Assembly: GCF_000622365.1 (NCBI RefSeq)
Contig: NZ_JASC01000014.1
Span: 620,001 to 684,000 of the forward strand
Direction of reading: 5' to 3'
DNA: 64,000 nucleotides
Origin: Sulfitobacter noctilucae
Lineage (GTDB): Bacteria; Pseudomonadota; Alphaproteobacteria; Rhodobacterales; Rhodobacteraceae
The notes beneath the pieces are model-generated. The model was not told the DNA's origin, searched no databases, and saw nothing but the letters and a program-made list of their open reading frames with translations. Position numbers and translations under genes: made by a program. Positions within the stretch are counted from its first letter, which is position 1. Each line of letters begins with the position of its first letter. Positions 18,654 to 36,540 of this stretch are shown piece by piece.

Positions 18654-18737
18654 GCGGGTGTGGCGGAATTGGTAGACGCACCAGATTTAGGTTCTGGCGC
18701 CTATGGCGTGGGGGTTCGAGTCCCTTCACCCGCACCA
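18654..18737 (+). tRNA. tRNA-Leu (UAG anticodon)
   Basis: Acceptor arms GCGGGTG and CACCCGC pair fully, followed by A and an encoded CCA at 18735-18737. The D-loop GGCGGAATTGGTAGACGC is leucine type. The anticodon arm CCAGA-TTTAGGT-TCTGG gives UAG, and a short class II variable arm and the GGTTCGAGTCC T-arm follow. The gene is intact although an integrated element starts at its 3' end, because the element supplies the same 26 bp. Confidence 0.97.
18712..18737 (+). repeat. attL: left copy of the 26-bp attachment core
   Basis: The last 26 bases of tRNA-Leu, from the T-arm GGGTTCGAG through the CCA end. Identity to the right copy stops exactly at both ends (CTC versus AAC after it). Confidence 0.9.
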
Positions 18738-18795
18738 CTCTAACTCCTTGAAAGTAAACAATGCCCTTGCAAACAAGGGGCAAAGTCCGTTTGAT

Positions 18796-18814
18796 GGTTA
18801 CAACTTTGGTTACA
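18796..18814. repeat. Tandem GGTTACA pair near attL
   Basis: Two copies of GGTTACA start at 18796 and 18808, about 60 bp inside attL and just upstream of the integrase start. A similar pair lies inside attR. They are candidate arm-type integrase binding sites. Confidence 0.4.
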
Positions 18815-18827
18815 AACGGGCCGTGAT

Positions 18828-20399
18828 GTGACAGGCAAAATCAAGAATTTGGTGAACCGTCGTGGACGCTACCATGCACGGTTAGTGGTCCCGAAAGACC
18901 TGCGAAAATTTGTTGGCAAAACGGAACTTCGAACTCCGTTGGGCGGTGACTATCGGCAGGCGGTGAAGTTGCTGCCCGGTGCGGTGGCTCAACTTCAACA
19001 CAAAATTGCTCTCGCTGAGCGTGAGGCAGGGATCGGCGACGGCACTCCGGCACGTTACCCACTTGCGACGGATCAGTTGGCTTATAACCATTATTCCTTG
19101 CGCTTGATGTTCGATGAGCGGCGACGGAATCACTTTCCAATAGGTCAAATCGGCATCAACGATCTGCTTGTAGACCAGTTGCGTGCAGCTGTTGGGGGGC
19201 ATGCAACTAACGAAGAGCTGAAGGTGCTGGTCGGGCCGCACATCGAACGGTATCGGACCCTTGGCAATACAGATGTTCTAGAGGGCAGTCCGGCTTGGCG
19301 GGAACTAGCCAGAGCGCTTTGCATGGCCGATCTGGAAGCACTCGAACGTATTGTCGAACGGGATGAAGGCAACTTTTCTGGCGAAACTAATTTGCCGCTC
19401 CTCAAGGATGCAGAGCCACCAAAGAACCCTGACAAGCCCGTGAATCTCACGCAGCTTTGGACCGACTACGTCAATAGTCGCGTTCAGGCCGGTTTCATGC
19501 GGGACAAGGGCAAGCGTCAGTTGCCGGTTATCGAAAGCCTGCGAAAATTCGTTAAGCACAATGACGCGAGACGCATCACCAAGAGGGACTTGCTCGAATG
19601 GCGCGATCAGGTGCTGGAAGACCGGTGTGCAAAGACCGTGAACGACGTCTATCTTTCGGCAATTCGTTCACTGTTTTCTTGGGCGTTTGAGAACGAGCGC
19701 CTAACCGAAAATGTAGCAGCATCCGTGAAGCAGCCGAAGGCGAGGAAGGTTTACAGCCGCGAACGCGGTTACACAGATGCAGAAGCGCTGAAGGTTCTGA
19801 AGGCGTCCCGATCTTATCAGTCAAAAGTTGATGAGTTCGGGAACGTGCGTGAATCAGTCCAAATCGCAAATGTGAAGCGTTGGGTGCCGATGATCTGCGC
19901 TTTTTCAGGTGCACGGGTTTCAGAGATTATCCAGCTGCGCAAACAGGACGTCACGAAGGTGGAAGGGCGGTGGGTGATCAGGATTACTCCGGATGCTGGC
20001 ACAGTGAAGTCTGGCGGATATCGCGATATCCCATTGCACGACCAGATCATTGCCGAAGGTTTCCCTGAGTTCGTGCTGGCGGCAAAAGACGGCCCGCTTT
20101 TCCATAACGCGAAAGACCCTGAGAAATTCCAACGTGCAGCGGTCATAGTATCTAACAAGCTTTCAGAATGGCTCCGCACTACAGGCTTGCGGCCTGACGG
20201 GTTGCAGCCAAACCATGCTTGGCGGCACAGGTTCAAGACCCAATGCCGTGAGCTGGGCATCTCTGATCGTGTTGTAGATGCAATCCAAGGACATGCGGCC
20301 AAAACTTCGTCAGACAACTATGGCGATGTAACCTTGAAGACGAAAACGAACGCGATAGAGCAGCTCCCGAACTACGATCTGAACTGCATGACGGCATAA
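18828..20399 (+). CDS. Tyrosine-type site-specific integrase
   Basis: This 523-residue recombinase begins with a DUF6538-like arm-binding region (YHARLVVPKDLRKFVGKTEL, about 11-30). It has a core-binding SAM-like domain at about 205-310 and a catalytic domain from about 320. The active-site residues can be placed: R363 in FSGARVSEI, H463 and R466 in NHAWRHRF, H489 in IQGHAAK and the nucleophile Y498 in SSDNYGD. The start is GTG at 18828, 90 bp from the attachment core. It presumably drove insertion into tRNA-Leu. No excisionase gene is recognised nearby. Confidence 0.93.
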   Translation: MTGKIKNLVNRRGRYHARLVVPKDLRKFVGKTELRTPLGGDYRQAVKLLPGAVAQLQHKIALAEREAGIGDGTPARYPLATDQLAYNHYSLRLMFDERRRNHFPIGQIGINDLLVDQLRAAVGGHATNEELKVLVGPHIERYRTLGNTDVLEGSPAWRELARALCMADLEALERIVERDEGNFSGETNLPLLKDAEPPKNPDKPVNLTQLWTDYVNSRVQAGFMRDKGKRQLPVIESLRKFVKHNDARRITKRDLLEWRDQVLEDRCAKTVNDVYLSAIRSLFSWAFENERLTENVAASVKQPKARKVYSRERGYTDAEALKVLKASRSYQSKVDEFGNVRESVQIANVKRWVPMICAFSGARVSEIIQLRKQDVTKVEGRWVIRITPDAGTVKSGGYRDIPLHDQIIAEGFPEFVLAAKDGPLFHNAKDPEKFQRAAVIVSNKLSEWLRTTGLRPDGLQPNHAWRHRFKTQCRELGISDRVVDAIQGHAAKTSSDNYGDVTLKTKTNAIEQLPNYDLNCMTA

Positions 20400-20471
20400 A
20401 ATAACTTTGCTCTTTCCCTCGGATTCTTACTGTGGTATTTATGCAACACTCAATTTGTTACATAGGTTCAC

Positions 20472-21671
20472 ATGGCCCTTACTCGCCTAAAGCAAGCTCT
20501 TGGCTTCACTACCGAACAGAAAGCCATCACGCTCACTGATCCGGAAGCATGGGCGCTGTTCGGATCAATGCCTACTGCGTCGGGTATCAGTGTTGGTCCA
20601 TCAAGCGCCATGCGCGTTCCTGCCGTTGCATGTGCAGTATCGCTAATCAGCGAAACTATTGGTGCTATGCCGGTCAAACTGTTCGACCGGGACACGAAGG
20701 ATTAGCTCACTACTCACGCTGCCTATCGCTTGATCCATGATGAGGCGAACCCTTGGACAAGTGCATCTGAGCTGCGCGAACAGCTGACCACAGATGCTTT
20801 GTTGCACGGGGCAGGACACGCACAGGTTATCCGGTTTCCGGATGGCACACCGTTCGAGTTGCATCGCATCGAACCGGGTAAGGTGCAGCGCCAGCTAGAA
20901 CAAGACGGCGAACCTTTCTACCTTGTTAGCACGGTCTCCGGCCAAGCACGCATACCTTACAGCGACATACTACGCGTTGAGGCTTTCGGCGGGATATCTC
21001 CGGTCACTTTGGGTCGCGAAGCAATCGCATTGGCCCTCAGCTTCGAACACCATATCGGCGGCGTGTTTGCGAATGGTGGCCGTCCGTCAGGAGTGATCAA
21101 GGCACAGAAGTCCCTCGACGCAGAAGCCAAAAAGAAGCTGGCTGCATCGTGGTTCACGACCCACGGCGGCAAGAATGCAGGCGGCACTGCCTTGCTCGAT
21201 GAAGGCATGGACTATCAACAACTGTCTATGACCCTTGCGGATACTCAATTTGCGGAAAACCGTCTTGAGCAGATCCGTGAAATTGCCCGTGTGTTTCGAG
21301 TGCCCCCTACGATGCTTTTCGAGCTGAGCCGTGGCACTTGGTCCAATACCGAACAGATGATGCGCCAGTTCCTCACGCTTACCCTGCGGCCTTGGCTGAC
21401 CAACTGGCAGGCTGCGTATGCACGTTGCCTGCTGACCCCAGAGGAACGCGCCGAAGCCTACATCGAATTCATCACCGATGATCTGTTGTCTACGGATCAT
21501 GCCACCCGTGCAACTGCTTACGGGCAATATCGGTCTATGGGTGTGATGACCGGCAACGAAGTCCGCAGAGGCTTAAACATGGCGGATCACCCGGAAGGCA
21601 ACAAGCTCGACAATCCCCACATCACTACGACTACCGATATGCAGCCTGATCAACCGGAGGTCACAGAATGA
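20472..21671 (+). pseudogene. HK97-family phage portal protein interrupted by an in-frame TAG stop
   Basis: The frame from 20472 encodes residues 1-77 of a portal protein (RVPAVACAVSLISETIGAMPVKLFDRD) and then meets TAG at 20703-20705. Reading in the same frame continues without shift: THAAYRLIHDEANPWTSASELREQ, LHGAGHAQVIRFPDG, PFYLVSTVSGQARIPYSDILRV, FRVPPTMLFELSRGTWSNTEQ, to the stop at 21671. The full frame is 400 codons, the normal portal size. The portal forms the dodecameric DNA gate of the capsid, and neither half should work alone. The break is a single point change, so it may be a recent inactivation, an assembly error or a suppressed amber codon. The 3' end overlaps the next gene as ATGA. 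Confidence 0.85.
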
Positions 21672-21991
21672 TCACCTTTACTGGGTTCTTCGGCACCGCA
21701 GATCACACCTTCACCCTGACCGATGCCATGATCGCCGAACTGGAACGCGTCTGCGATTGCGGCATTGGCACGCTTTATCAGCGCACGGTGGCGATGGCCT
21801 TCAGGTCTGCTGATCTGACAGAAATCATCCGACTTGGCCTGATCGGCGGTGGCATGACGCCTCAAGAGGCGATGCAGCTGACAGACACCTACGCACGCAA
21901 TCGTCCCATGGGCGAAGTGTTTCCACTGGCCTTGGATATTTTGGACGCCCGCTGGAACGGCACTGAACCCGATAAGGAGGCCGGAGCGTGA
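21668..21991 (+). CDS. GTA gp10-like phage tail assembly protein
   Basis: This 107-residue protein resembles the gene transfer agent gp10 / Phage_TAC family: a short beta start (TADHTFTLTDAMIAELERVC), a middle helix pair (LTEIIRLGLIGGGMTPQEAMQLTDTYA) and a polar C-terminal tail. In GTA and related siphophages this protein is thought to act in tail assembly. It overlaps the portal frame by 4 bp (ATGA) and has a GGAGGT Shine-Dalgarno. Lying between portal and capsid is unusual, because in GTAs gp10 follows the major tail protein. Confidence 0.7.
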   Translation: MITFTGFFGTADHTFTLTDAMIAELERVCDCGIGTLYQRTVAMAFRSADLTEIIRLGLIGGGMTPQEAMQLTDTYARNRPMGEVFPLALDILDARWNGTEPDKEAGA

Positions 21992-23529
21992 CCAATTACA
22001 TCGAAGTTAAGGCAGCTCTGTCCGTCACAGACGCAGGCGAGATCACCGGTATTGCATGGCCGTTCGGTAGTGCAGACCGCGTTGGCGATGTGATCGAAAA
22101 GGGTGCCATAACAGCACCGGCAACCTTGCCCATGCTGTTCGCTCACGACCAAGGCCAAGTCGTCGGCGTTTGGGATCACATCGCAGAGACGGACCAAGGG
22201 CTGACCGTAAAAGGCCGCTTGCTAGTAGACGGCGTAGAACGCGCCCGTGAAGTGCGTGCGATGATCCAGAGTAAGGCCGTCACCGGCCTGTCGATCGGCT
22301 TTGTCACCAAGCAAGCCAAGCGGCACGCCAAAGGCCGCACGATCACAGCTGCGCACCTTCACGAAATTTCAGTTGTCGCGGTCCCGTGTCATCCGGGCGC
22401 ACAGATCACTTCCATCAAATCCGATGACACCACCATGACAATTCAGGAGAGAACCCACATGGAAAAAGAAGAAATCGCAGGCGATCAAATCGACCCAAAA
22501 GTCCCTGCGAACGATGCCCCGCAGATCGACACCAAGGCTTTCGAAGAAATGAAGGTCCGGCTTGATCGCATGGAAGCAAAAGCAAATCGGCCTCGGATCA
22601 GCCATGACCAGAACCCGGTCATGCAAGGTGACGAAACCAAAGCATTTGCGGCCTACCTGCGCACAGGCGATCGAACAGAGATCAAATCGCTTGCCTATAG
22701 TTCTGGCACAGGTGGCATTCTCGCGCCTGAGACAGTCAGCACATCAATCCTCGAAAAGATCGCTGAATTCTCGCCCGTGCGCAGCGTCGCGCAAACCATT
22801 CAGATGAACGGCCCACTGCTACAGCTGCCCCGGCTTCAGCAAGAGGTCGATCCGGCAGAAGTTGCTGAGGGCGCGGAAAAAGACGTGGACGAACCAACAT
22901 TCGACCAAATCGATCTTAAGCCTTTCGAAATGGGCGTTGTGGTTCCCGTTACCAAGATCCTTTTGGAAGACGCTCACATCGATCTTTCGGCATATTTGGG
23001 AAACCACATTGCCCGCCGGTTTGGTCAAAAAGAAGCGACTTGGTTCGTAAACGGCAATGGCACATCGCAGGCCGAAGGCGTGATGGTTTCAGCCGATATT
23101 CTGGACAACGAAGTCGCTTCCATCGACGCCGATGCTCTGATCGATCACTATTACGGTATCAAGACCGGTTACGCCTCAAATGGCGTCTGGCTGATGAACC
23201 GCAAGACGATGGCATTGGTCCGGAAGCTGAAGGATGCCGATGGTCAGTATATCTGGCAGGCGGGTCTACAGTCCGGCCAACCAGCAAACTTGTTGGGCCG
23301 TCCGGTCTATGAAGCTGTCGATATGCCTGACCCCACTGCTGGCAATTCGCCGATTGTCTTCGGTGACTTTGCCGAAGGATATGCCATCGCCGATCGCACA
23401 GGCTTTGAAATCATCCGGGATGAACTGACCGGTGCAGCGTCTGGCATGGTCAAGTTGATTGCACGGCGCCGTGTAGGTGGCCGCGTGGTCATGGGTGAAG
23501 CTCTGGCAAAACTGTCGCTGGCTGCCTAA
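21988..23529 (+). CDS. Prohead protease-major capsid fusion (HK97 type)
   Basis: This 513-residue protein joins two normally separate head proteins. Residues 1 to about 150 form a serine protease of the HK97 prohead protease family with the catalytic His in LFAHDQG and the Ser in TGLSIGFV. Residues about 155-230 are a charged linker with a coiled-coil delta-domain-like stretch (FEEMKVRLDRMEAK). Residues about 240-513 are an HK97-fold capsid protein (GGILAPETVSTSILEKI, ATWFVNGNGTSQAEGVM, GVWLMNRKTMALVRKL). In such fusions the protease is expected to free itself during maturation. The 3' end has the family's RRVGGRVVMGEALAKL. Confidence 0.9.
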   Translation: MTNYIEVKAALSVTDAGEITGIAWPFGSADRVGDVIEKGAITAPATLPMLFAHDQGQVVGVWDHIAETDQGLTVKGRLLVDGVERAREVRAMIQSKAVTGLSIGFVTKQAKRHAKGRTITAAHLHEISVVAVPCHPGAQITSIKSDDTTMTIQERTHMEKEEIAGDQIDPKVPANDAPQIDTKAFEEMKVRLDRMEAKANRPRISHDQNPVMQGDETKAFAAYLRTGDRTEIKSLAYSSGTGGILAPETVSTSILEKIAEFSPVRSVAQTIQMNGPLLQLPRLQQEVDPAEVAEGAEKDVDEPTFDQIDLKPFEMGVVVPVTKILLEDAHIDLSAYLGNHIARRFGQKEATWFVNGNGTSQAEGVMVSADILDNEVASIDADALIDHYYGIKTGYASNGVWLMNRKTMALVRKLKDADGQYIWQAGLQSGQPANLLGRPVYEAVDMPDPTAGNSPIVFGDFAEGYAIADRTGFEIIRDELTGAASGMVKLIARRRVGGRVVMGEALAKLSLAA

Positions 23530-23532: not shown

Positions 23533-24159
23533 ATGACAAAGCAGCACGCATTTCGGGCGATCGCTTTGGAATACGGTGGCAACACCGTTTTCCTGCTACC
23601 CTCGTTGCGTGCTGCATTCTTTCTCGAACAGCTGCATGGCGGCTTTCCGGGCTTGCTCAGAAAGCTGGCAGAATTTGACACCGCAACGGTCTGGCATGTG
23701 ATCAAGGAAGCTGCTGGCAAAGACGCCAGTGACACGCTGCTTGCGTATGCAGCAACACGACCTCTTACGGCATTCTCACATGCCGCTACAGGCCCATTGT
23801 TTGCATTGGTGGCGGCACTGCTGCCGATCGCACCAAAGGCTACGACAACTGATAGCGATGGTGCTTCAGTCCCTTGGGCAGATGCCTTCACTGAACTCTT
23901 CAAGATCGCAACCGGCTGGCTTGGCTGGACACCGGAAACGGCATGGAATGCCACGCCGCAAGAGATCACAGACGCCTTTGATGCACATCTGAACAAGCTG
24001 AAGGCGCTGCACGGTGCGGCGGATGATGAACCTGACAGCACGAACGCAAATCAAAGAGCGCAGAATATCGCATTGGGCCTTGATCCTGAGTTCGACAGGG
24101 CCGGTCTGCACGCGCTGAAGGTTAAAAGCAAAGCGCGTGAAGGGCAGGTGGATCTATGA
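23533..24159 (+). CDS. Phage tail assembly chaperone-like protein (gp10/gp10.1-like halves)
   Basis: This is a 208-residue protein. The N-terminal part (FLLPSLRAAFFLEQLHGGFPGLLRKLAEFD) has the pattern of GTA gp10-type proteins. The segment about 118-160 (LFKIATGWLGWTPETAWNATPQEITDAFDAH) matches the short rcc01693/gp10.1-type chaperone (G-x-x-G-W-x-P-x-x-x-W-x-x-T-P-x-E). In GTAs these are two small frames, so a merged form is suggested. The call is by pattern, not by search. It starts 3 bp after the capsid stop and overlaps the HNH gene. Confidence 0.6.
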   Translation: MTKQHAFRAIALEYGGNTVFLLPSLRAAFFLEQLHGGFPGLLRKLAEFDTATVWHVIKEAAGKDASDTLLAYAATRPLTAFSHAATGPLFALVAALLPIAPKATTTDSDGASVPWADAFTELFKIATGWLGWTPETAWNATPQEITDAFDAHLNKLKALHGAADDEPDSTNANQRAQNIALGLDPEFDRAGLHALKVKSKAREGQVDL

Positions 24160-24506
24160 GTAGACCACCAAGGCTCTGCACATGCGGCAAAACAGTCGCG
24201 CACGGTCAAAGATGTCCCTGTCAGATTATTCGCAATCGCGCACGCAATCAGCGCCACGATCGCAACCGCCCTACAGCCTCGCAGCGCGGTTACGGCAGCG
24301 CATGGCGAACGGCCCGTGCAGCATTCCTAAAGATAAATGATCGTTGCGCATGGCCCCGTTGCGGTGCTGTGGCGACAGTTGTGGACCACATCATTGCGCA
24401 TCGCGGCAACCAAGACCGGTTCTGGGACCGAAGCAATTGGCAACCGCTTTGCAAACCTTGCCATGATCGCCGCAAGCAACGGCAGGAGCGTAGCGATGGC
24501 AGATAA
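24156..24506 (+). CDS. Phage HNH endonuclease
   Basis: This 116-residue protein carries a zinc-binding HNH module: CAWPRCGAVATVVDHIIAHRGNQDRFWDRSNWQPLCKPCHDRRK, with CxxxxC and CxxC pairs and the catalytic DHIIAH. A further cysteine cluster (CTCGKTVAHGQRCPC) lies at the N-terminus. Such HNH proteins partner with the terminase to cut phage DNA at packaging. It is in the head-gene string, overlapping its neighbours by 4 and 11 bp, though about 2.7 kb from the terminase small subunit. Confidence 0.88.
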   Translation: MSRPPRLCTCGKTVAHGQRCPCQIIRNRARNQRHDRNRPTASQRGYGSAWRTARAAFLKINDRCAWPRCGAVATVVDHIIAHRGNQDRFWDRSNWQPLCKPCHDRRKQRQERSDGR

Positions 24507-25050
24507 CCAACATCAGAAGCTCTGGCTTGAAGTGTTATCCAAAGCCATCACCGATGCTCTGGAAGGTGCACCCAGCTGGTCTAGCGATCGGGTAGAAGAA
24601 ACCCACAAGGCACGCAGCTATTTCACAGAGACCAACAAAGACTTCACGACTGTCTGCAATCTGGCTGGCGTTGATCCGGAAGCCGTCCGCGAGCGGATGA
24701 TCAAGCTGATCGAAGCAGCAGCTACGCCGGAACTGCTGTTTGGAATGCCACATGCAGAAAGACGCGGCCAAAAGCTTCATTCAAAGCCAGCGCACAGGCG
24801 CAAGCTGTTCCTCACCTACAAAGGTGAGCGCCGCAGAATGACAGAATGGGCGAAGTGCTTTGGCATCAATTACCGCGTCTTGCACAACCGTATCAAGAAT
24901 GGCTGGCCAGTCGAACGCGCCCTGACTGAAGCGGTTGGACCCTCGTTCAAAGGTATGGGGGGTGGTCTAGCTTTTCGGACCGCTCAGGGGACCGGCGGGG
25001 GGAGTGCCGCACAGGACAGCTCGAAAATAGATTTTCCAAAGAGAATTTAA
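24496..25050 (+). CDS. Phage-associated putative DNA-binding protein
   Basis: The 184-residue product starts at 24496 inside the end of the HNH gene, preceded by an AGGAGCG Shine-Dalgarno. Residues about 30-80 are helical. Residues about 105-140 (YKGERRRMTEWAKCFGINYRVLHNRIKNGWPVERALTEAV) have the form of a short helix-turn-helix module, seen in many phage and homing-endonuclease-associated proteins, that binds DNA. The C-terminal 35 residues are Gly-rich and low in complexity. No enzyme motif is visible. Confidence 0.6.
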   Translation: MADNQHQKLWLEVLSKAITDALEGAPSWSSDRVEETHKARSYFTETNKDFTTVCNLAGVDPEAVRERMIKLIEAAATPELLFGMPHAERRGQKLHSKPAHRRKLFLTYKGERRRMTEWAKCFGINYRVLHNRIKNGWPVERALTEAVGPSFKGMGGGLAFRTAQGTGGGSAAQDSSKIDFPKRI

Positions 25051-25053: not shown

Positions 25054-25566
25054 TTACTCGCCGGGGGCTTTTTCAACACCTATTCTCATCCACGACTGAA
25101 TTGAGGTCTTGATACTGTCGAACATGGCTTCGTTGAGCGTATCGCTGTTATAAATTGTCGTGTGCAGGTCGAGCCCGATCTGTCCGATGATAATTTTTCT
25201 CTGATTGTATTTTGGTGAAACAGCTGCCCAAAATGAAGTATTAATTGAGCCGTGACAAAGGCCGGTTTCCGCACGAGTTGCATCCACTTGAATCTTGAAT
25301 TCTGCGATATTCTCTCTCAGAACTGGATGAGGAAGGCCGTTGTCTCGTTCGGGCATTTCAATCACGTTAAACCCAACGAGTTCTAATTGGTCTTGTGCAT
25401 AATTGCGGGTCTCGCGAATGTTGGTCCAACAGCCACCGTCGGCGTGATCACGGATCGTAACATAGACGCCATCAAACACTTTAGGTTCCCACAACGGCTG
25501 TGCCGACAATGACTGTGAAAGCAGCCCAAGGTAAACAAGCGGTGCTGCAATAAATCTCTTTGTCAT
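25054..25566 (-). CDS. Secreted protein of unknown function on the opposite strand of the phage module
   Basis: The 170-residue protein has a signal peptide (about 1-23, FIAAPLVYLGLLSQSLSAQ). The ATG at 25566 is preferred because the GGAGGG Shine-Dalgarno lies just upstream of it and inside the longer frame starting at 25581. The mature part has two cysteines about 60 residues apart (GGCWTNIRETRNYAQ and LCHGSINTSFW) and a YNQRKIIIGQIGLDLHTTIYNSD segment, with no recognised family. It sits alone on the minus strand between head genes, with its own promoter region, which is typical of a cargo (moron) gene. Confidence 0.65.
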   Translation of the reverse strand: MTKRFIAAPLVYLGLLSQSLSAQPLWEPKVFDGVYVTIRDHADGGCWTNIRETRNYAQDQLELVGFNVIEMPERDNGLPHPVLRENIAEFKIQVDATRAETGLCHGSINTSFWAAVSPKYNQRKIIIGQIGLDLHTTIYNSDTLNEAMFDSIKTSIQSWMRIGVEKAPGE

Positions 25567-25642
25567 ACGATCGCCCTCCAATGTGGGAATTGTATTGCTT
25601 TGAGCTGCAAAATTACAACCAGACTTCCAAACACGATTACGA

Positions 25643-25686: not shown

Positions 25687-25986
25687 ATGACTTCAACCAC
25701 ACCCGTCACCCTACTGAAATTGCAACTCAATCTTGAGCATGATCTTGATGACGAACTGCTACAGCACAAGCTGGACGCAGCCGAACTCTGGATCACAAAC
25801 TACACCGGCAGTGCTTTCGCAGAAGGCAACGCGGCGTTGACTGAGGCTGCATTACAGCTTGCCTCTTACTGGTATGAACAGCGTGAAGCAGTGGGCTTTG
25901 ACGTCGCCCTGAAGCCAGCACCTTTCGGCGTGCGGGAGCTTCTGGATTCCTACAAGACTCAGGTGACCGGCCATGTCTCTGAGTAA
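25687..25986 (+). CDS. Phage head-tail connector protein (gp6-like)
   Basis: This 99-residue protein is all-helical and fits the gp6-like connector family that docks under the portal: VTLLKLQLNLEHDLDDELLQHKLDAAELWITNYTG, then ALTEAALQLASYWYEQREAV and FGVRELLDSYK near the end. Length is typical. Its start is 30 bp after the palindrome, with a weak Shine-Dalgarno (TTGAGAA). It overlaps the next gene by 14 bp. Confidence 0.85.
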   Translation: MTSTTPVTLLKLQLNLEHDLDDELLQHKLDAAELWITNYTGSAFAEGNAALTEAALQLASYWYEQREAVGFDVALKPAPFGVRELLDSYKTQVTGHVSE

Positions 25987-26395
25987 GCAATCCCAAAAGC
26001 TTTCCAAGCGCTTGGCAGCCATCCCTGAAGCGGTGCTTGAAGGCGTTCGCCCTGCCTTGATCAAAGGTGCCGAAGAGATTGCAGCGACCATGGAACTGCT
26101 GGTTCCTGTTGATGATGGCGACCTGAAAGCCTCTATCACGGTGACCAAGCCGGGGCAGACAACACCTGCCTACGCTGAAGGTGGTGGCAAGCGGACAGCA
26201 GGCCCAAATCAGGCGCTGGTGACCGTCGGTAATGAGAACGTCCGGCACGGTCACTTGCAGGAATTCGGCACAGTCAAGCAGGAAGCGCAGCCCTTCCTGC
26301 GACCTGCCGAACGGCTTGCCGGACCAAAGGCCAAGCGCAGGATCATCCGTGCGATCGGTCAGTCCATCAAGAGGGCAGCGGGAGGTAAGGCATGA
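25973..26395 (+). CDS. HK97 gp10-family phage tail-component protein
   Basis: This 140-residue protein matches the HK97 gp10 family (head-tail joining or tail terminator type): an N-terminal helical part ending in AATMELLVPVDDGDLKASI, then a strand with the conserved HGHLQEFGTVKQEAQPFLRPA. Its role is structural at the neck or tail end. It overlaps the previous and next genes by 14 and 4 bp, so it is translationally coupled in the neck-gene string. Confidence 0.85.
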   Translation: MSLSKQSQKLSKRLAAIPEAVLEGVRPALIKGAEEIAATMELLVPVDDGDLKASITVTKPGQTTPAYAEGGGKRTAGPNQALVTVGNENVRHGHLQEFGTVKQEAQPFLRPAERLAGPKAKRRIIRAIGQSIKRAAGGKA

Positions 26396-26811
26396 TTGAT
26401 CCTAGCATCACATTCCAAACGGCTGTTCGGGCGGCTCTGGTGGCCAGCCCAAGGGTCACGTATCTAGTAGAAGCGGATCACATTCGCGCCGGATCAACTC
26501 GCCCTGAAAAGCTGCCGACAATCATCTTGGCGAATCCTCAGACGATCCATCTGGGCAAGGCAAGTTGTGGATCGTTTCTGACCCGTGTTTTCATCGATGT
26601 GCACATCTGGGCGATTGAGGACGGTGCTGATGTGGCACGCCAAATCGGAGCGGCAATCTCGGTTGCCCTATGGGATACGCCATGCTCGACCGAAAACGAT
26701 ATCGATGCCTACAGCCGCCCCAGCTTTCGCTACATGCGTGACCCTGATCCGAGCCGCGCATATTGTCACGGCGTCGGCACTGTCGAAGGGGTAGTTCGAT
26801 GGGCGCTCTGA
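26392..26811 (+). CDS. DUF3168 phage tail-completion protein
   Basis: This 139-residue protein of the DUF3168 family (GTA gp8-like) caps the tail tube at the head end. Features are ITFQTAVRAALVASPRV, then FLTRVFIDVHIWAIEDGADVARQIGAAISVAL and a C-terminal HGVGTVEGVVRWAL strand. The presence of a tail-completion gene implies that this element descends from a tailed, non-contractile phage. It overlaps the head-closure gene by 13 bp. Confidence 0.8.
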   Translation: MIDPSITFQTAVRAALVASPRVTYLVEADHIRAGSTRPEKLPTIILANPQTIHLGKASCGSFLTRVFIDVHIWAIEDGADVARQIGAAISVALWDTPCSTENDIDAYSRPSFRYMRDPDPSRAYCHGVGTVEGVVRWAL

Positions 26812-29249: not shown

Positions 29250-31604
29250 ATGACAGAACTTCCCGGCCTAATCGTTCCATTAGAAGCACGCGTCGACAAG
29301 CTCGAAAGAGGGCTGCAACGGGCCAACCGCATGCAGCAGCGTTCGTCCGGCCAAATGGAACGGCGTGCAGAGGTTTCCGCAAAAAGGATGCAAGCCAGCT
29401 ACGGGAAAGCAGGCAGTGCGATCGCTGCGAGCTTCAGCAAAATCGGTCCGGCACTTGTCGGTGGTTTGGCCGTTGGAGGGTTCGCGGCTTTGACCAGTAG
29501 CCTTGGCCGGATCGTGACAGAGACAGCTCAGATCGGAGATGAGGCAAAACGCGCCGGTGTTTCAGTTCGTGCGCTGCAAGAGTGGACCTATGTCGGTAAG
29601 CAAAACCGCATTGGCACAGATGCCATCGTGGATGGTCTGAAAGAGATGAATTTGCGTGCGGATGAATTCATTCTCACGTCGAAGGGGCCAGCGGCAGAAG
29701 CCTTCACCCGGTTGGGCTACGGCGCGAGTGAACTGAAAACCAAACTGAAAGACCCGTCCGAACTACTGTTGGAAATCATCGGCAGAATGGAAGCCTTGGA
29801 CGATGCAGCGCGTATTCGCATCGCCGATGAACTTTTCGGCGGCAGTGCTGGCGAGCGCTTTGCCGAACTTGTTGCGGGTGGTGAGCAAGCGCTGCGCAGC
29901 ACGATCAAGGCGGCAAATGACACTGGTGCCGTTCTGGACCGCGAGGTTATCGAAAAAGCAGCTGAGCTGGATCGTAAATTTGCAGCCCTGACCACCCGTG
30001 TAGATACATTTGTGAAGACAGTCGTGGTCGGCATTGCGTCTGCCGGCCCCAAACTTGAACGCGTCGGTTCATATCTCGACAACCTTTTCGATAATCCACG
30101 GCAGACGGGTTCCATCCTTGGCAGCGGTATCACCTCTGAGCTTTACGGAAATGCACGCGCTGTCGAAGAACACAGGCAGACGATCGAAGCACTGGCCAGC
30201 AGTTATGATGAGACAGCCTACATCGCAGATCGCACAGCAACACGGTTGGCGAATGTCGCACAGCAACTGCGTGCTATGGGCCAGACTGACGCAGCAAACG
30301 AGCTGGATCGTGCCGCAGCTGAAATGAGAAAGCTGACCGAAGAGTTCGACAACGGCGTAATTGGAGCGACAGAGTTTGAGGAACGCCTGACCGATGCCAC
30401 AGGTGCGGCGCAAGACACCCTTGCAGAAGTGGCTGCGATCAATGGCAGTAAGTTCGACTATGTGATCAGTGGGCTTGGCCGTCTGGTCACCGCACTGGCG
30501 TCAGCGGCAACGAAAGCCCGTGAGCTGCGCAGCGCATTGCCGGGGGCCATGCCCGGTGGCGAAACCGAAACACTTGCCCCAATGGATCCCGGTCCAAGAA
30601 CGCGCAACGGCCATAGAGCAGCGACACCGGGGCTGGCTACGGCTACATCTGCTCGCCCGACCCTGCCGAGCGTAGACGCCAGCTTTGGCACCCCAGAACC
30701 TAGTTCCGGTGGTGGTGGCAAGAGCGGTGCCAGTCGTCAAAATGACTTTGAACGCGAGCTGCAATCAATCGCTGAAGAAACAGCAGCCCTGAAGTTGGAA
30801 GCTGAAGCGCTGGCGCAGGTTACCGGTGCTCAATTGCGAAACGTGGATGCGATGGAACTGGCGCGAACCAAAGCTGAGCTGTTGGCAGCTGCGCGACGGT
30901 CTGGCCTTGCCGATACACCAGTTCTACGCGCTCAGATCGATACGATGGCCGATGCCTATATCGAAGCCAGCAGAGGTGCAGAGCTTGCGGCGGAAAAGAT
31001 CAGCGAAGTGCAGGAGGCAAGTCGGAAAGGTGCGAGCTCCGTCGCAAGTGTTTTTGAGCAGATGGCAACTGGCGCACTCTCCGCAAAAGAAGCAGTCGGC
31101 AAATTGATAGTGGAAATGCTCAAGATGGAAATGCAAAAGCGGTTCATGGACATGGCCGCTGGCGCTTCCGGCAGTTGGCTTGGAACTATGCTGACCGTTT
31201 TAGGCGGCGGTTTTGCCGAAGGTGGATACACAGGGGCAGGTGGAAAGTTCCAGCCAGCCGGGGTGGTCCACAAGGGTGAATACGTCATGCCGCAGACCGT
31301 AGTGCAACGATTAGGGGTTGATCGACTCGCAGCGCTCCATAGCGCGGCCCTGAAAGGCTATTCTGGGGGCGGGCTGGTAGGAGGGCAGGCAGGCCTCCAG
31401 GGTGGCGCTCAGGGGCATTCTGAGGCGATGCCTTCTTTGGTGGTCAATGCGCCGGTAACGGTCAACGGTTCTGCCGGGACACCGGTCCAGAATGATGATC
31501 TGGCGCTGAAGATGGCGCGTAAACTAGAAGCGACTATGCGTGGCGTCGCTGTCGACGAAATGCGTCGTCAGATGCGCCCCGGCAATTTGCTCGGAAAGCA
31601 GTGA
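29250..31604 (+). CDS. Phage tail tape-measure protein
   Basis: This 784-residue protein begins with amphipathic helices (RVDKLERGLQRANRMQQRSS) and has a hydrophobic segment (about 60-85, IGPALVGGLAVGGFAALTS). Then comes the tape-measure pattern: AKRAGVSVRALQEWTYVGKQNRIGTDAI, LKDPSELLLEIIGRM and ADELFGGSAGERFAELV. A Pro/Thr/Gly-rich linker follows at about 420-500, and coiled helices to 640. The C-terminal FAEGGYTGAGGKFQPAGVVHKGEYVMPQ block is typical of tape-measure proteins. At the usual spacing it would set a tail of about 0.1 micrometre. No tail tip genes follow it. Confidence 0.9.
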   Translation: MTELPGLIVPLEARVDKLERGLQRANRMQQRSSGQMERRAEVSAKRMQASYGKAGSAIAASFSKIGPALVGGLAVGGFAALTSSLGRIVTETAQIGDEAKRAGVSVRALQEWTYVGKQNRIGTDAIVDGLKEMNLRADEFILTSKGPAAEAFTRLGYGASELKTKLKDPSELLLEIIGRMEALDDAARIRIADELFGGSAGERFAELVAGGEQALRSTIKAANDTGAVLDREVIEKAAELDRKFAALTTRVDTFVKTVVVGIASAGPKLERVGSYLDNLFDNPRQTGSILGSGITSELYGNARAVEEHRQTIEALASSYDETAYIADRTATRLANVAQQLRAMGQTDAANELDRAAAEMRKLTEEFDNGVIGATEFEERLTDATGAAQDTLAEVAAINGSKFDYVISGLGRLVTALASAATKARELRSALPGAMPGGETETLAPMDPGPRTRNGHRAATPGLATATSARPTLPSVDASFGTPEPSSGGGGKSGASRQNDFERELQSIAEETAALKLEAEALAQVTGAQLRNVDAMELARTKAELLAAARRSGLADTPVLRAQIDTMADAYIEASRGAELAAEKISEVQEASRKGASSVASVFEQMATGALSAKEAVGKLIVEMLKMEMQKRFMDMAAGASGSWLGTMLTVLGGGFAEGGYTGAGGKFQPAGVVHKGEYVMPQTVVQRLGVDRLAALHSAALKGYSGGGLVGGQAGLQGGAQGHSEAMPSLVVNAPVTVNGSAGTPVQNDDLALKMARKLEATMRGVAVDEMRRQMRPGNLLGKQ

Positions 31605-32592: not shown

Positions 32593-33021
32593 ATGCCAGA
32601 ATTAGTAAAACTTCCAAGTCAGCGCGTCGAACAATTGCGCCAGCTTTCTTCCAAGCTACAAATGCCGATCTCGGACTGCATCGGTCAGTTTATCGCTGAG
32701 CAGATAGAAAAAGGGAACCTTGATCCAGATGTGCCCGGTGTTCAGGTGTCTAAGTCAGCAAAAGAAGTTCGTTTTAAAACGCCTGATGTTGATCTTCGGT
32801 CGTCCAGAATACAATTTCTGGAAGACGCAGCGGCTTCAATTCGTGCTATAACGCGACCTTCTAAAAACAACCCTTTGATGCCGTTACCAGAAAACTTCGG
32901 TGTTACGCGGCGAGGAACGTCTGTCAAAATCCGAGATACTGAAACTGGATCAGAAACCACACTCGCTTTGAGCGTTGCCCTAGACGTAGCGGCTCAGTTG
33001 GAGCGCGCTTCAAAAAGTTGA
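32593..33021 (+). CDS. Hypothetical protein, possible ribbon-helix-helix N-terminus
   Basis: This 142-residue protein is preceded by a strong GCAGGAGGC Shine-Dalgarno. The first 45 residues (LVKLPSQRVEQLRQLSSKLQMPISDCIGQFIAEQIEKG) have the strand-helix-helix form of a small ribbon-helix-helix DNA-binding domain, which would make it a candidate regulator. The rest is polar, with a C-terminal TETGSETTLALSVALDVAAQLERA helix. It is directly upstream of the HUH-type gene, whose longest frame overlaps its stop, so the two are probably co-expressed. No database family is claimed. Confidence 0.6.
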   Translation: MPELVKLPSQRVEQLRQLSSKLQMPISDCIGQFIAEQIEKGNLDPDVPGVQVSKSAKEVRFKTPDVDLRSSRIQFLEDAAASIRAITRPSKNNPLMPLPENFGVTRRGTSVKIRDTETGSETTLALSVALDVAAQLERASKS

Positions 33022-33086
33022 ATTCCAATCGGCCCGCCGCAGCAACGATGGGCCGATCTGATCTGAGGATTGGTGGTGGTGGTGTG

Positions 33087-33983
33087 ATGAAGCGATACCA
33101 AAATACTGGAAAGCGACTAAGAAGTTGTCATGTGTCAGCCGATGCGTGCATTAAGGTCAATCATCCCGCATCGGATGCAAACACAGCCGGGCAAGATCCA
33201 TTGGATTCAGTTGGAAAAGTTGCGGAGAGCAAAAGAGCGGAAGCCCAGCATTTCCGCTATGAAGCAAAGGCCCCACGGGCAACTTCTGAAAACGGTTGTC
33301 TAGTTGATACACCAACCAACCCCTCCATCGTCAACACCTCAACCCCTCCAACAACTCAATCCACACGCCTCACCACCCTCCTTCAGTCACCAGAAGTCCA
33401 AGCCTTCATCGCAAAGGCCAAAGCGCAGAACAAGCGTGAAGAAACCAGAGCCGCCAACCTGATTAGCCGCAAGTCCATCCCGACGACCAAATGGAAACGA
33501 GCTACGCCTGATGAAAAGTTCCGCTATGCCGGTCATTGGGCCGAACGTGCCGAAGGTAAAGCATTCAGCTTGAACCTATCGCCCACCACACAAGACAAGC
33601 TCCGTATCCATGACGACCCGCTAAGGGCCTTCTCAGACATTCTGAACCGCCAACTGAAAGCGTATGGACTGTTCGGCATTTCCTACGCTCTGACACTTGA
33701 AGACAGCAAGGCAGACAAGTTGCACGTTCATGGTTTCCTTGTCGCGCCACCAGACACAGACAAGGCCGTCAGGGCCGCTCTGAGGGCCGCTGGTGGTCAT
33801 ATCTCCGGCAGGGCAGGCAGTAGGCAGCTCACACTTAGGAACCTGTCTGACGGCGGTGGTTGGGCTTTCTATTGCGGCAAAGACAAAGAACGCACCAATG
33901 AAGAGCTGAAGGGCGTAGCGCGACCTTTCCTAAACAGATCGATGGTGCAGGCGGCGCGTGAGTTTTCCCTTTCGACAGACTGA
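33087..33983 (+). CDS. Putative HUH-type replication initiator (Rep) protein
   Basis: This 298-residue protein (ATG at 33087; a TTG at 33018 overlapping the previous stop is the alternative) has the three sequence marks of single-tyrosine HUH endonucleases in order. These are a hydrophobic strand ISYALTLE (about 198-205), the metal-binding H-V-H in KLHVHGFLVAP (213-215) and a Y-x-x-K motif in GWAFYCGKDKE (Y262, K265). Such proteins nick an origin and start rolling-circle replication or transfer. The first 90 residues are polar and probably disordered. I assign it from motifs only. It is the only replication candidate in the element. Confidence 0.6.
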   Translation: MKRYQNTGKRLRSCHVSADACIKVNHPASDANTAGQDPLDSVGKVAESKRAEAQHFRYEAKAPRATSENGCLVDTPTNPSIVNTSTPPTTQSTRLTTLLQSPEVQAFIAKAKAQNKREETRAANLISRKSIPTTKWKRATPDEKFRYAGHWAERAEGKAFSLNLSPTTQDKLRIHDDPLRAFSDILNRQLKAYGLFGISYALTLEDSKADKLHVHGFLVAPPDTDKAVRAALRAAGGHISGRAGSRQLTLRNLSDGGGWAFYCGKDKERTNEELKGVARPFLNRSMVQAAREFSLSTD

Positions 33984-34071: not shown

Positions 34072-34246
34072 CTCAGGCAGAGTGACGGCTCCGGGCGGGA
34101 TCACCTTAGTAAGTTCAAAGTTCGGGGCCGTATCTCGTAAGTAAGTTCTGACTTATTTATATAAAACAATGACTTAAGTAGAATTCGAACTTGCTTGAAT
34201 GAGCAGGCTAGGGCTAACTGCATCGTGCACCAAAGGGGGAACGCGC

Positions 34247-34432
34247 ATGGCACTTGGCCAAGACAAATCAATTTACCTGCCTGACCATACCTACAATCAG
34301 CTCAAGGAGAGGCTGGTCCACCTCATTGGGGATCAGTCTGAGGGTTGCGGCACAGACGCTGCAACAGAGGTTGTGGCTGCCCTAGGTGAGATCGCCGATA
34401 TCTGGCCTGAATTGATCCGTAGTGAGAATTAG
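34247..34432 (+). CDS. Small hypothetical protein, 61 residues
   Basis: The start at 34247 follows AAGGGGGAACG. The protein is acidic and helical (SIYLPDHTYNQLKERLVHLIGD, then TDAATEVVAALGEIADIWPELIRSEN), with no signal peptide and no recognised family. It heads a short plus-strand series in the right arm. Confidence 0.55.
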   Translation: MALGQDKSIYLPDHTYNQLKERLVHLIGDQSEGCGTDAATEVVAALGEIADIWPELIRSEN

Positions 34433-34440
34433 CTTGCAAA

Positions 34441-34473
34441 CCGTCATCGTCAATGTTACGTTGACGATGACGG
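34441..34473. promoter_or_regulatory. Perfect hairpin with 13-bp arms and 7-base loop
   Basis: Left arm 34441-34453 (CCGTCATCGTCAA), loop TGTTACG (34454-34460), right arm 34461-34473. It starts 8 bp after one stop and its right arm runs into the GGGAGG Shine-Dalgarno (34472-34477) of the next gene. It could be a nicking origin for the Rep-like protein, an RBS-sequestering hairpin or a repressor site. Confidence 0.6.
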
Positions 34474-34484
34474 GAGGGCTGCAA

Positions 34485-34991
34485 ATGGCTAAGACTTCAA
34501 CTGAAAGAATGCAGGCTAAGAAAGAACGCGAAGAAGCTGCACGCAGGGCAGCTGAAGACTCAACCTATCCATACTTAAAGGAGACGTTCTCGGAATTTCT
34601 CAAACATGAAGGTAACTATTCCAGCGTCGAGATTGCGCTCGGTCTAGCCGGTATAGAAGCCCCCTTAATAGAAGATGAGATGGGGCCGGAGAACTTTGCT
34701 TTGGAGGACGTCATCGCTGGCGTTGATGATCCGTTTCCCGGCGCAAAAGGTGCCATCGGAAGAGCGGAAATCATGATCGATTGTTTCATAGATGCAGCGA
34801 TGGAACTCGCCAATGTCGTTCAAAATTACAAGCGACAAGAGATCGAAGCCCGCCTTGCCGAACTTGAAAATTCCGAAAAAGCTGACCGAGCTACTGCTAT
34901 GAAGGAAGCAGTGAAGCTCACCAAGATATTAGACCAGCTGGACAAGCAGGTCAGACGATCTTTCCCACAGTGGAAGGTAACGGGCATCTAA
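34485..34991 (+). CDS. Hypothetical helical phage protein, 168 residues
   Basis: The start at 34485 is set by the GGGAGG Shine-Dalgarno that touches the upstream hairpin. The N-terminus is highly charged (KTSTERMQAKKEREEAARRAAEDS), the centre is acidic (EAPLIEDEMGPENFALEDVIAGVDDP), and the C-terminal half is predicted coiled coil (YKRQEIEARLAELENSEKAD, then LTKILDQLDKQVRR). There is no signal peptide and no known motif. Expression may be controlled through the hairpin. Confidence 0.6.
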   Translation: MAKTSTERMQAKKEREEAARRAAEDSTYPYLKETFSEFLKHEGNYSSVEIALGLAGIEAPLIEDEMGPENFALEDVIAGVDDPFPGAKGAIGRAEIMIDCFIDAAMELANVVQNYKRQEIEARLAELENSEKADRATAMKEAVKLTKILDQLDKQVRRSFPQWKVTGI

Positions 34992-35081: not shown

Positions 35082-35633
35082 ATGATTAAGAATATCACCA
35101 ATGACAGAAGTGATGCAAGATTTTTGGATGAAAACATGACACTTGCCGCATTTAAGTCGTATGTGTGTGCTACCAGTATGACCGAAAAGGTTCGCCCATC
35201 ACTCGTGCTGCATGCGCCATATACGACGGTTGAGTATTTCAACTCTCCATTCGGTTTGATTGTGTTTGCTCATCATGACACGTTTGAAGGGCAGGTGGAT
35301 GGGATTCATCCGGCAGCGCTCAGCGAAAACATCGTAAGTCCTCGAAACATCGTTAAACCGCTTACAGGAAACGCGGCAAACAAGATGGCGTATAATGTTC
35401 ATTACATGACGCGCCGCTCTCAGGGAGCACTAGTGCTGAAGGCATTCGGACGGATGGTCCACAGCGGTGACGATGAGGCACCTAGCTTTGGCACTAGCAA
35501 ATCTTTTCTGCTCGAAGTCTACAATTTGGAGATGGGGCCGATCATAGGTGCCATCGAAAGCGAAGAGCGGGTTTGCGTCATTCGACCTGAGGATTTGCAG
35601 CGAAAAAACCTGCGGCACGAGGTGGCAGCATGA
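35082..35633 (+). CDS. Hypothetical protein, 183 residues
   Basis: A strong AGAGGAGAG Shine-Dalgarno precedes the ATG at 35082. The protein is a mixed alpha-beta globular sequence (MTLAAFKSYVCATSMTEK, VEYFNSPFGLIVFAHHD, MAYNVHYMTRRSQGALVLK, FLLEVYNLEMGPIIGAIE) with no signal peptide, membrane segment or catalytic motif that I can name. It is coupled by an ATGA overlap to the next small gene, suggesting the two products act together. Confidence 0.6.
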   Translation: MIKNITNDRSDARFLDENMTLAAFKSYVCATSMTEKVRPSLVLHAPYTTVEYFNSPFGLIVFAHHDTFEGQVDGIHPAALSENIVSPRNIVKPLTGNAANKMAYNVHYMTRRSQGALVLKAFGRMVHSGDDEAPSFGTSKSFLLEVYNLEMGPIIGAIESEERVCVIRPEDLQRKNLRHEVAA

Positions 35634-35806
35634 AACAGGTATCCATCACCCGCGGCGGCACGACCTACAGCGGCACATACATAGTCAAAGGAAAGATGCT
35701 CTATGTGACCTATGCGGGGCAGACAAAGGCTACTCAAGTCGGCGGCATGAAAGGCAATGAGTCTGTGCTGGCCAGGACTATCCTTGCAGAGATGATCGGC
35801 TCATAG
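35630..35806 (+). CDS. Small hypothetical protein, 58 residues, coupled to the gene above
   Basis: The ATG at 35630 overlaps the preceding stop (ATGA). The 58 residues are beta-rich and Gly/Thr-rich at first (VSITRGGTTYSGTYIVKGKMLYVTYAG) and end with a helix (SVLARTILAEMIGS). The frame is short but tightly coupled and followed by a strong terminator, which supports it as a real gene. I do not recognise the family. Confidence 0.55.
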   Translation: MKQVSITRGGTTYSGTYIVKGKMLYVTYAGQTKATQVGGMKGNESVLARTILAEMIGS

Positions 35807-35840
35807 CGAGCAAACGGCGCGTTGAATGACAATGAGCTGA

Positions 35841-35870
35841 GCCCGCCGGATAACTTCCGGCGGGCTTCCT
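35841..35870. terminator. Strong hairpin terminator between convergent element genes
   Basis: Perfect 10-bp GC-rich arms GCCCGCCGGA (35841-35850) and TCCGGCGGGC (35856-35865) with a 5-base loop, then TTCCT. It closes the plus-strand operon and overlaps the 3' edge of the opposing minus-strand gene. Confidence 0.8.
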
Positions 35871-36168
35871 ACGCCGACCGTGGAAACTCTGGTCCAAGCG
35901 CACGCTCAATACGCCAGCTAAGATTACCCTCGGCCCCACACCGCTTACACTTCATATCAGCCTGAACATGTATCAGCTTTCTCATCTCGTGATACCGGGC
36001 GAACAAGACGTGAGGCGCTACGTTGCTGATCCAGTGGCAGGCGGGGCAGGTGACTATGAGAACGTCACGAGCGGTCAGGTCAGCAATCCTGACTTCGAAC
36101 TTTAGACCAAGGATAACAGGTTGGTAGGGCATACACCTGTCATTGCATATGTTCACTCTTCGTTCCAT
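35869..36168 (-). CDS. Putative zinc-ribbon protein
   Basis: This 99-residue protein has two CxxC pairs, LIVTCPACHWI (about residues 41-44) and MKCKRCGAEGN (about 74-77), separated by 29 residues. This is the spacing of a small zinc ribbon. The helical stretch between them (VLFARYHEMRKLIHVQADM) is polar. It could be a regulator or a phage-type zinc protein; no family is named. It is the last gene before attR and points inward. An internal Met at 36132 is an alternative start. Confidence 0.55.
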   Translation of the reverse strand: MERRVNICNDRCMPYQPVILGLKFEVRIADLTARDVLIVTCPACHWISNVAPHVLFARYHEMRKLIHVQADMKCKRCGAEGNLSWRIERALGPEFPRSA

Positions 36169-36514
36169 CGCTTCATCGCGTGGTTGAGGTAGAACTTGCG
36201 TCTTTCTGTCATCAAGGTTTCGCCCACTTGTCGCCCAATATCGCGTGCATGCTCAAATCGCTCGCCGAAACCTGCCACTGAGAAACAGAATGAGAAAATT
36301 GCGACCAACAAAACTTCGTTCGCCCGATCGATTGTAAAGTGCCTGTCGGGCTACCTTCTATAAGGGCGAAGACCCAAACCCGATTCCGGAGTGCTTTTGT
36401 CTGCATAGTCATCGCCATAATCGTATACAGTTTGGCCTAGAAACGGTCCATTCTAAAGTCGGTTACATGGTTACAAAATGACCCGTAACCCATTGATATA
36501 TAATATCGCGATTA
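36169..36514. other. Element right-end non-coding region (346 bp)
   Basis: Short open frames here lack Shine-Dalgarno sequences and protein-like composition. The last 60 bp hold two GGTTACA repeats and an inverted GTAACC, and an AT-rich stretch (TATATAATATC) directly before attR. Confidence 0.5.
36461..36490. repeat. GGTTACA repeats near attR
   Basis: GGTTACA starts at 36461 and at 36469, and the reverse complement GTAACC lies at 36485-36490, 25-55 bp inside attR. They mirror the pair at the left end (18796, 18808). Confidence 0.4.
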
Positions 36515-36540
36515 GGGTTCGAGTCCCTTCACCCGCACCA
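36515..36540 (+). repeat. attR: right copy of the 26-bp attachment core
   Basis: An exact copy of the tRNA-Leu 3' end from the T-arm through CCA, without the rest of the tRNA. Beyond it the host sequence resumes with a GC-rich stretch (CCCTTCCCGAACGGGCGGG) that could be the tRNA gene's original terminator. Confidence 0.9.

Follow-up and report, generated by a model that had tools for sequence, protein, structure and literature searches.

Within a 64,000-nucleotide stretch of the Sulfitobacter noctilucae genome (contig NZ_JASC01000014.1, positions 620,001 to 684,000; hereafter the window), a 17.8-kb element is bounded on the left by the 3′ end of a tRNA-Leu gene and on the right by an exact 26-bp duplicate of this end (36515-36540). 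An earlier sequence-only reading had described a tRNA-Leu-integrated element with head, terminase and tape measure genes, and had offered three options for it: a phage satellite that encodes its own capsid, a prophage in decay, or a domesticated cluster resembling a gene transfer agent (GTA). Scanning 20 window frames, plus small frames, with Pfam and PHROGs gave the features below, in which att denotes the integration repeats.

18654..18737, +: tRNA-Leu (anticodon TAG), the integration target (ARAGORN)
18712..18737, +: attL, 26-bp direct repeat formed by the tRNA 3′ end (exact repeat)
18828..20399, +: tyrosine integrase with a DUF6538 N-terminal domain (Pfam Phage_integrase 4e-8, DUF6538 1e-7)
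20472..21671, +: portal gene broken by a TAG stop codon in frame at 20703-20705 (open frames 20472-20705 and 20730-21671; Phage_portal 2e-81 for the latter)
21668..21991, +: tail assembly chaperone 1 (TAC_11, GTA g10 family; Pfam 1.9e-26)
21988..23529, +: fused prohead protease (S78) and HK97-type major capsid protein (Pfam 5.6e-19, 8.5e-69)
23533..24159, +: tail assembly chaperone 2 (TAC_6-like; Pfam 1.5e-4, 22.6 bits against a cut-off of 23.4; phrog_7493 6e-25)
24156..24506, +: HNH endonuclease (Pfam 1.5e-6)
24496..25050, +: orf237 family, start picked by eye, weakly like HNH-associated proteins (phrog_3377 2e-10; in 49 of 63 elements)
25054..25581, -: accessory gene in a variable cargo slot, probable secreted protein by eye (no Pfam or PHROG match; homologues in L116 and L161)
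25687..25986, +: gp6-like head-tail connector (Pfam 2.5e-10)
25973..26395, +: HK97-gp10-like neck protein (Pfam 2e-9)
26392..26811, +: gp17/DUF3168-type tail terminator (Pfam 2.7e-11)
26763..27212, +: head closure/completion protein (Pfam 4.9e-11)
27212..27604, +: terminase small subunit TerS, P27/Terminase_4 (Pfam 9e-20)
27604..29238, +: terminase large subunit TerL (Pfam 6e-33 and 7e-19; phrog_9 6e-122)
29250..31604, +: tape measure protein, 784 aa, whose last ~60 residues are common to RHEph10-type phages (phrog_10574 2e-126)
32593..33021, +: R142, small alpha/beta protein, possible nucleic-acid binder (AlphaFold pLDDT 89; in 32 of 63 elements)
33018..33983, +: HUH-type replication initiator, Rep (motif, Foldseek, weak PF23343 in relatives)
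34199..34432, +: R77, small right-arm protein (cluster in 7 of 8 bounded elements; no Pfam match)
34422..34991, +: R189, right-arm protein (in 12 of 63 elements)
35082..35633, +: right-arm gene without homologue in the other 7 bounded elements
36515..36540, +: attR, 26-bp direct repeat (exact repeat)

The family matches bore out the HK97-type head, the TerS/TerL pair, the tape measure and the integrase of the sequence-only reading, its flanking 26-bp repeat is exact, and the gene order confirmed that the terminase follows the neck genes. The protease and the capsid are encoded by a single 513-aa gene, and two tail chaperones, TAC_11 and the TAC_6-like protein, are to be added to the earlier gene list. 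The right-arm gene that had been called a replicase is most likely an HUH-type Rep. The LHxHG motif and Tyr285 of this protein are invariant across 13 aligned sequences, PF23343 matches it weakly in relatives, and its top Foldseek matches are parvovirus NS1 nucleases (E ~0.02), amid many PII signalling proteins of similar fold.

The 26-bp repeat occurs exactly twice in the 3.9-Mb genome, at the two ends of the element. Among 40 genomes of the genus, the host's own included, the tRNA or the left flank was matched in 39, and the right flank was not conserved; a same-genus element (G192) lies at tRNA-Leu(TAG) with the identical 26 bases. Contigs of its family are listed as viral in IMG/VR, and the capsid of L077 is identical to that of the window. 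The right-arm region of the window (32001-36000) has a G+C content of 0.46-0.54 per kb, against about 0.55-0.64 in most host flanks.

The distribution of the element was assayed with the fused protease-capsid as the query against 292 genomes of the order Rhodobacterales, in which 8 further genomes gave nearly full-length matches with at least 50% identity and 12 with at least 45%. The query matched 24 named genome contigs, two of them distantly (35-36%), as well as 497 IMG/VR contigs; the best 80 of these were examined and were all at most 27 kb long. In the phage collection no capsid match exceeded 60% identity. TerL was matched at E ≤ 1e-100 in 6 of 385 genomes sampled across the class, the own genome counted, so that the family is wide but sparse. 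Its named members are, by name and taxonomy, Rhodobacterales and Hyphomicrobiales. Pooling 10 genomes, the window, 22 named loci, 80 IMG/VR contigs and 2 plasmids gave 115 records, of which 76 were complete, that is, carried the portal, TAC_11, capsid, gp6, gp10, TerL and tape measure genes, and 39 were left out for want of a marker gene, many because the contig or stretch ends. The complete records reduced to 63 non-redundant elements at 98% TerL identity; the distant relatives L055, L056, G096, G003, G168 and G187 were excluded from these counts.

Eleven core genes were found in identical order and on the same strand in all 63 elements, window included. The sequence-only reading had proposed a search for this gene order in other genomes, and its recurrence rules out a deletion private to this strain. 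An integrase hidden Markov model (HMM) matched 48 of the 63, some records being truncated. In 8 of the 11 elements that could be read on both sides, exact att repeats of 17-43 bp lie 16.5-20.2 kb apart; for G024 and G149 the repeat search probably stopped short of the left end, since the integrase is unrecognised there. The integration sites are tRNA-Leu, Val, Pro and Gln genes and one site without a tRNA. Another relative (L341, NZ_CP157016.1, 1-17494) is a satellite-plasmid, a circular 17,494-bp molecule of Paracoccus marcusii that encodes both a Rep_3 initiator and an HUH-like Rep, no integrase being annotated on it. In G103 a transposase gene (20677-21687, joined L063/L064; IS30-like by eye) splits TerL in an otherwise complete element.

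The absence of tail tube, tail tip, lysis and repressor genes, which the sequence-only reading had reported, was upheld by the Pfam and PHROGs scan, in which none of the scanned window frames matched such a family. The one lysis match, of the tape measure to a PHROG labelled 'endolysin', covers only 54 C-terminal residues and is such in name only. TAC_11, for which Pfam and PHROGs give the name 'tail tube protein', was considered as a hidden tube and rejected: it belongs to a chaperone family, and the plasmid pMPOP02 has both TAC_11 and a tube. In passages of PMC11409702, g10 is tail chaperone 1, and PMC7296036 assigns the tube of the GTA of Rhodobacter capsulatus (RcGTA) to g9. R142, too, could be ruled out as a hidden tube, as its predicted fold is not recognisably tube-like; its Foldseek matches are weak, none at E ≤ 0.001.

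Across the family, six-frame open reading frames of at least 50 aa were searched with an HMM built on nine tube sequences (of GTAs, phages and four satellite relatives, these last matching by construction) and with further HMMs for two tube types and the tip genes of RHEph10-type phages. The tube HMM matched 1 of the 76 complete records, namely pMPOP02, which had been added on purpose and was in the training set, and a tube was undetected in 62 of the 63 non-redundant elements. The lambda-type tip proteins L, K and J were matched in none of the 76 records; M was found in 12 and I in 9 of them (10 and 5 of the 63, respectively). Beyond the 76 records, G024, G149 and a Hansschlegelia element (L051 = L128) have a tube, with no L, K or J match there. 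Pfam matched 20 families among 104 variable proteins of at least 75 aa, hence without small holins, from 80 IMG/VR contigs, and none was a tube, J or lysis family; Pfam missed the L128 tube within that set, PHROGs identified it when run singly, and the pooled PHROG result lists 25 of 67 families. Lysis genes were sought with Pfam only, on the window and these variable proteins. The gaps between core genes leave no tube-sized room in most elements, except for the interval between the TAC_6-like and gp6 genes (340-3,767 nt), where the recurrent genes are HNH and orf237.

An intermediate form is represented by pMPOP02, a 23.4-kb plasmid of Methylorubrum populi (L342, NC_010721.1, 20913-21356) that carries the same block together with a tube and M, and no L, K or J match. 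The plasmid retains orf237 and also bears a Tn3-like transposase gene, and its TerL frame is short. In a capsid tree, obtained by a quick search and with long branches, the four tube-bearing relatives are scattered (4 changes), so that the tree gives no ground for claiming that the tube was lost just once.

We put a probability of about 0.62 on the explanation that these elements are phage satellites which set their tails with their own ruler and take the tube and tip from a helper phage. Judged from gene content, the family very probably consists of capsid-encoding phage satellites of Alphaproteobacteria, because all 63 elements share one gene order, 8 of 11 have exact att repeats and the tube/tip gap recurs. 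The sequence-only reading had set as its test for a satellite that several intact copies should lack the same tail and lysis genes, and the copies found do share the tube/tip gap. That the tape measure serves as a ruler on a helper tube and tip is probable, and the helper may, tentatively, be a 110-120-kb phage-plasmid of the RHEph10/pLM21S1 type.

In the mechanism that we propose, the element would leave its tRNA site when a helper phage is active and replicate by its HUH Rep. The satellite would build a small head from the protease-fused HK97 capsid and package about 17.5 kb with its own TerS, TerL and HNH proteins. It would also supply what sets tail length and fit, namely the tape measure, the chaperones and the terminator, together with M or I in some members. 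The tape-measure C-terminus would dock on the helper's lambda-type tip, the helper tube protein would polymerise along the tape measure to the satellite length (784 aa, compared with about 1,550 aa for the candidate helper), and the satellite terminator would cap the tube. Host recognition and lysis would come from the helper.

The tape measure follows TerL directly in most elements, with a median gap of 4 nt; that all 63 carry it follows from its use as a marker gene. Two length classes, 780-826 and 878-908 aa, take in 39 of 46 complete tape measures (L077-L156, duplicates included); the frames across the 63 elements span 216-1,096 aa. The last ~60 residues are well conserved and common to Rhizobium phages of about 115 kb. 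Profiles of the satellite and RHEph10-type C-termini matched each other at E 2e-39, and the satellite C-terminus matched neither a GTA profile of three sequences nor RcapNL or phi2LM21, each used as one sequence. Downstream of the RHEph10 tape measure lie the genes for M, L, K and I (by Pfam) and then that for a tail protein of 1,439 aa, which is regarded as J on account of its size and position. A joint-alignment scan of IMG/VR returned 191 contigs, and the best 80, ranked by likeness to RHEph10, comprised 37 with a tape measure longer than 1,000 aa and 31 satellites, 13 of all 80 lying on contigs of 109-121 kb; in a control scan with the satellites alone, the best 80 of 198 were all on contigs of at most 30.5 kb.

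Further tail components point to the same lineage. One M (L085) and one I (L081) were queried, and both scored best against RHEph10-type members of 115-122 kb (94-98 and 100-116 bits, respectively, for the ten highest of 15 listed records; the others reached no more than 70 and 67). The TAC_6-like chaperone matched the second chaperone of that lineage, which precedes the tape measure, at E 9e-10, the sole match in 25 profile pairs, and matched the GTA second chaperone very weakly (E 5e-4). The shared tape-measure end, the M and I proteins and the second chaperone together suggest that the satellite ruler docks on an RHEph10-type tip and thereby sets a shorter tail. The RHEph10-type tape-measure end was also found in six plasmid records of 115-120 kb, and pLM21S1 is described in parts of PMC4447125 and PMC5537653 as a plasmid-like prophage related to RHEph10. 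In Sinorhizobium plasmids from PLSDB (H132 and H134-H137), the matching tape-measure end is annotated as vanY or D-Ala-D-Ala carboxypeptidase; perhaps a peptidase domain lies in or beside the tape measure.

Several observations weigh against this explanation. Particle, induction and transfer are predictions from the gene content. In the window the portal is interrupted by the in-frame TAG, and in relatives such as G192 (395 aa) it is a single open frame, so that the window copy may be inactive; alternatively, the stop may be an assembly error. No profile match was obtained between gp17 and the terminator of the RHEph10-type lineage or between TAC_11 and its first chaperone, and the two proteins weakly matched GTA-type g8 and g10 instead (E 6e-5 and 2e-5). 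As the neck proteins do not match the lineage, it is no more than a candidate helper. Residues 93-290 of the window tape measure are 53% identical to phi2LM21 (180 bits), and the match to RcapNL (28%) scores 157 bits; the C-terminal match to RHEph10-type proteins, at 71-76 bits, lies below both. In two other members the C-terminal 150 residues matched 991 and 960 phage records with lambda-type tape measures, and such broad matches mean that the C-terminal signal may reflect lambda-type tips generally. The tubes of the four relatives did not match those of the lineage. In one genome that holds both a satellite and a helper-like contig, their C-termini ranked 42nd of 106 entries (duplicates included) and formed no special pair. 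Among the 292 Rhodobacterales genomes no prophage with this tape-measure end was found; the nine matches were eight family elements and G272.

These points leave room for a helper outside the present sampling that has a TP901-1-type tube and a lambda-type tip, for a diverged interface, or for a tube from elsewhere. With the families tried, no resident prophage helper was found in the own genome, and PF05100 was matched in none of 11 host genomes. PF13550 occurs once in the own genome (G000) and in six others, and in 3-4 copies in G249, G103, G022 and G149, where the extra loci, of J/megatron type, could be candidate tailed prophage helpers.

An ordinary capsid-forming satellite that borrows finished helper tails, its tape measure and chaperones being leftovers, is a rather unlikely alternative. 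Its appeal lies in a head and packaging set equal to that of the capsid-forming phage-inducible chromosomal islands (cf-PICIs), as given in parts of PMC10690885, in relatives without a tape measure (G249) and in the wide range of frame lengths. Against it stand the position of the tape measure directly behind TerL in most elements, its two main length classes, its well-conserved C-terminus and the two retained chaperones.

We regard as improbable a self-sufficient small phage whose divergent tube and tip genes lie in the interval before gp6 or in the right arm. That interval is always roomy, the right-arm genes are mostly of unassigned function, the L128 tube escaped Pfam, and the scan of the relatives did not take in short proteins such as holins. 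The recurrent families in these regions across the 63 elements are nevertheless HNH, orf237, R142, Rep, R77 and R189, of which R142 is not tube-like; pMPOP02 carries a tube yet keeps orf237; and the 4.9-kb right arm of the window is too short for a lambda-type L+K+J set of about 1,900 aa.

The decaying prophage, that is, a deletion derivative of a complete siphophage, has a slim chance as an account of the family. The in-frame portal stop of the window copy, the transposase within TerL in G103 and the short TerL frame without tape measure in G249 are signs of decay in single copies. Against it, the tube is undetected in 62 of 63 elements that share one gene order and mostly have exact repeats where both sides were read, and no complete prophage with this head module, the would-be parent, was found in the phage collection, the genomes or the best 80 of the 497 IMG/VR contigs. 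As the order, the repeats and the tube/tip gap recur, decay is rejected for the family, not for the portal-interrupted window copy.

The host does carry an RcGTA-type cluster of its own (G000:C14:744000-762000, L172), about 88 kb from the element, which is apparently intact by gene sizes and contains the one PF06199 tube detected in the genome. Its portal, capsid, protease and gp6 match those of the element, and its tube matches PF06199; the other GTA gene names there are presumed from position and size. Each of 11 host genomes has a single PF06199 tube gene, which lies within the GTA cluster in the three genomes examined. Since this tube is single in each genome, and the satellite terminator and first chaperone are distantly related to GTA proteins, a particle of three genomes is conceivable, in which the satellite would give the head, ruler, chaperones and terminator, the host GTA the tube, and a phage with a lambda-type tip the tip; we consider this very improbable, and if true it would mean that the satellite parasitises gene transfer agents as well as phages. 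A domesticated GTA-like cluster can hardly be what the element is, for although TAC_11, gp17 and the head closure protein are distantly related to GTA proteins and the hosts hold that single tube, the element carries an integrase and a replication gene and is bounded by att repeats, its family occupies varied tRNA sites and includes a plasmid form, and the host's GTA cluster is separate from it.

The satellite explanation with its own ruler can be set beside known systems. Like satellites in general, the element is discrete, with an integrase and att sites, and tube and tip are consistently undetected across its relatives; the tube, tip and lysis genes of a complete temperate phage went undetected, and it differs from GTAs, which are fixed, vertically inherited and free of integrase and att sites. 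The cf-PICIs encode head and packaging genes and take tails, according to the passages seen of PMC10690885 and PMC11389934, and the element shares with them the capsid, protease, portal, connectors, TerS, TerL and HNH (PMC10690885, in part). Unlike the cf-PICIs, which depend on helpers for tails only, it has a tape measure, two chaperones and a terminator. Signature genes of cf-PICIs include alpA and Pri-Rep (parts of PMC10448857); AlpA was not matched in the window frames scanned with Pfam, and no Pri-Rep was found in the element, which has the HUH Rep instead. In the element the protease and capsid are fused, and the portal, capsid and neck genes precede the terminase.

Putative Escherichia coli satellites are described, in parts of PMC10448857, as having capsid genes, a putative tape measure and att sites and lacking most tail genes, like the element, so that a satellite with a tape measure is not wholly new. 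By that description, on which the comparison is based, they are without terminase, protease and head-tail adapters and have RepA_N, whereas the element family has all three and no RepA_N was found. The Streptomyces satellites MulchRoom and MiniFlayer resemble the element in their capsid and packaging set, and the MulchRoom tail is reportedly helper-derived; they differ in their reported direct terminal repeats, in their host phylum and in that the siphovirus-like one has no reported tail genes in the part of PMC10690885 concerned. The RcGTA-type agents hold distant relatives of the element's portal, capsid, protease, gp6, g7 (very weak), g8 and g10, and the element is distinguished from them by its mobility (integrase, att, Rep), by a tape-measure C-terminus unrelated by profile, and by having no tube, baseplate or megatron. 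RHEph10 and pLM21S1 share with the family the tape-measure C-terminus, the adjacent chaperone and the one M and one I tested, and differ in their size of about 110-120 kb, their tube, their M-L-K-I-J tip (J by size and position) and their tape measure of about 1,550 aa; we propose them as the helper and not as relatives of the head. No description of the family was found in the literature searched, although members may be counted in the primary cf-PICI paper or in a large satellite survey; PMC4490671, PMC10783043 and PMC12946183, in the parts seen, concern other things.

The gene set suggests that a satellite could determine how long its tail is and how it fits the head, with host range and lysis left to its helper, which predicts short satellite tails and long helper tails within one lysate. 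The family thus names a helper lineage to test and offers a natural experiment on recognition among tape measure, chaperone, tube and tip. It would also place capsid-encoding satellites with anti-phage defence cargo in Rhizobium, Paracoccus, Rhodobacter and relatives, for which none was found in the literature searched.

Defence cargo is usual in satellites, and TIR, RT-TIR and type IV restriction proteins were found among the variable genes (among the first 25 of 105 families). At least nine elements have, in place of Rep after R142, a gene for a very charged protein, which is 134-253 aa long where complete (for example L122:13980-14705, L079:12665-13318 and G115 25463-26170, joined L057/L058). 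The excluded relatives L055 and L056, whose portal and fused protease-capsid are only 35-36% identical and have other neighbours, possibly represent a different satellite type in Rhodobacterales.

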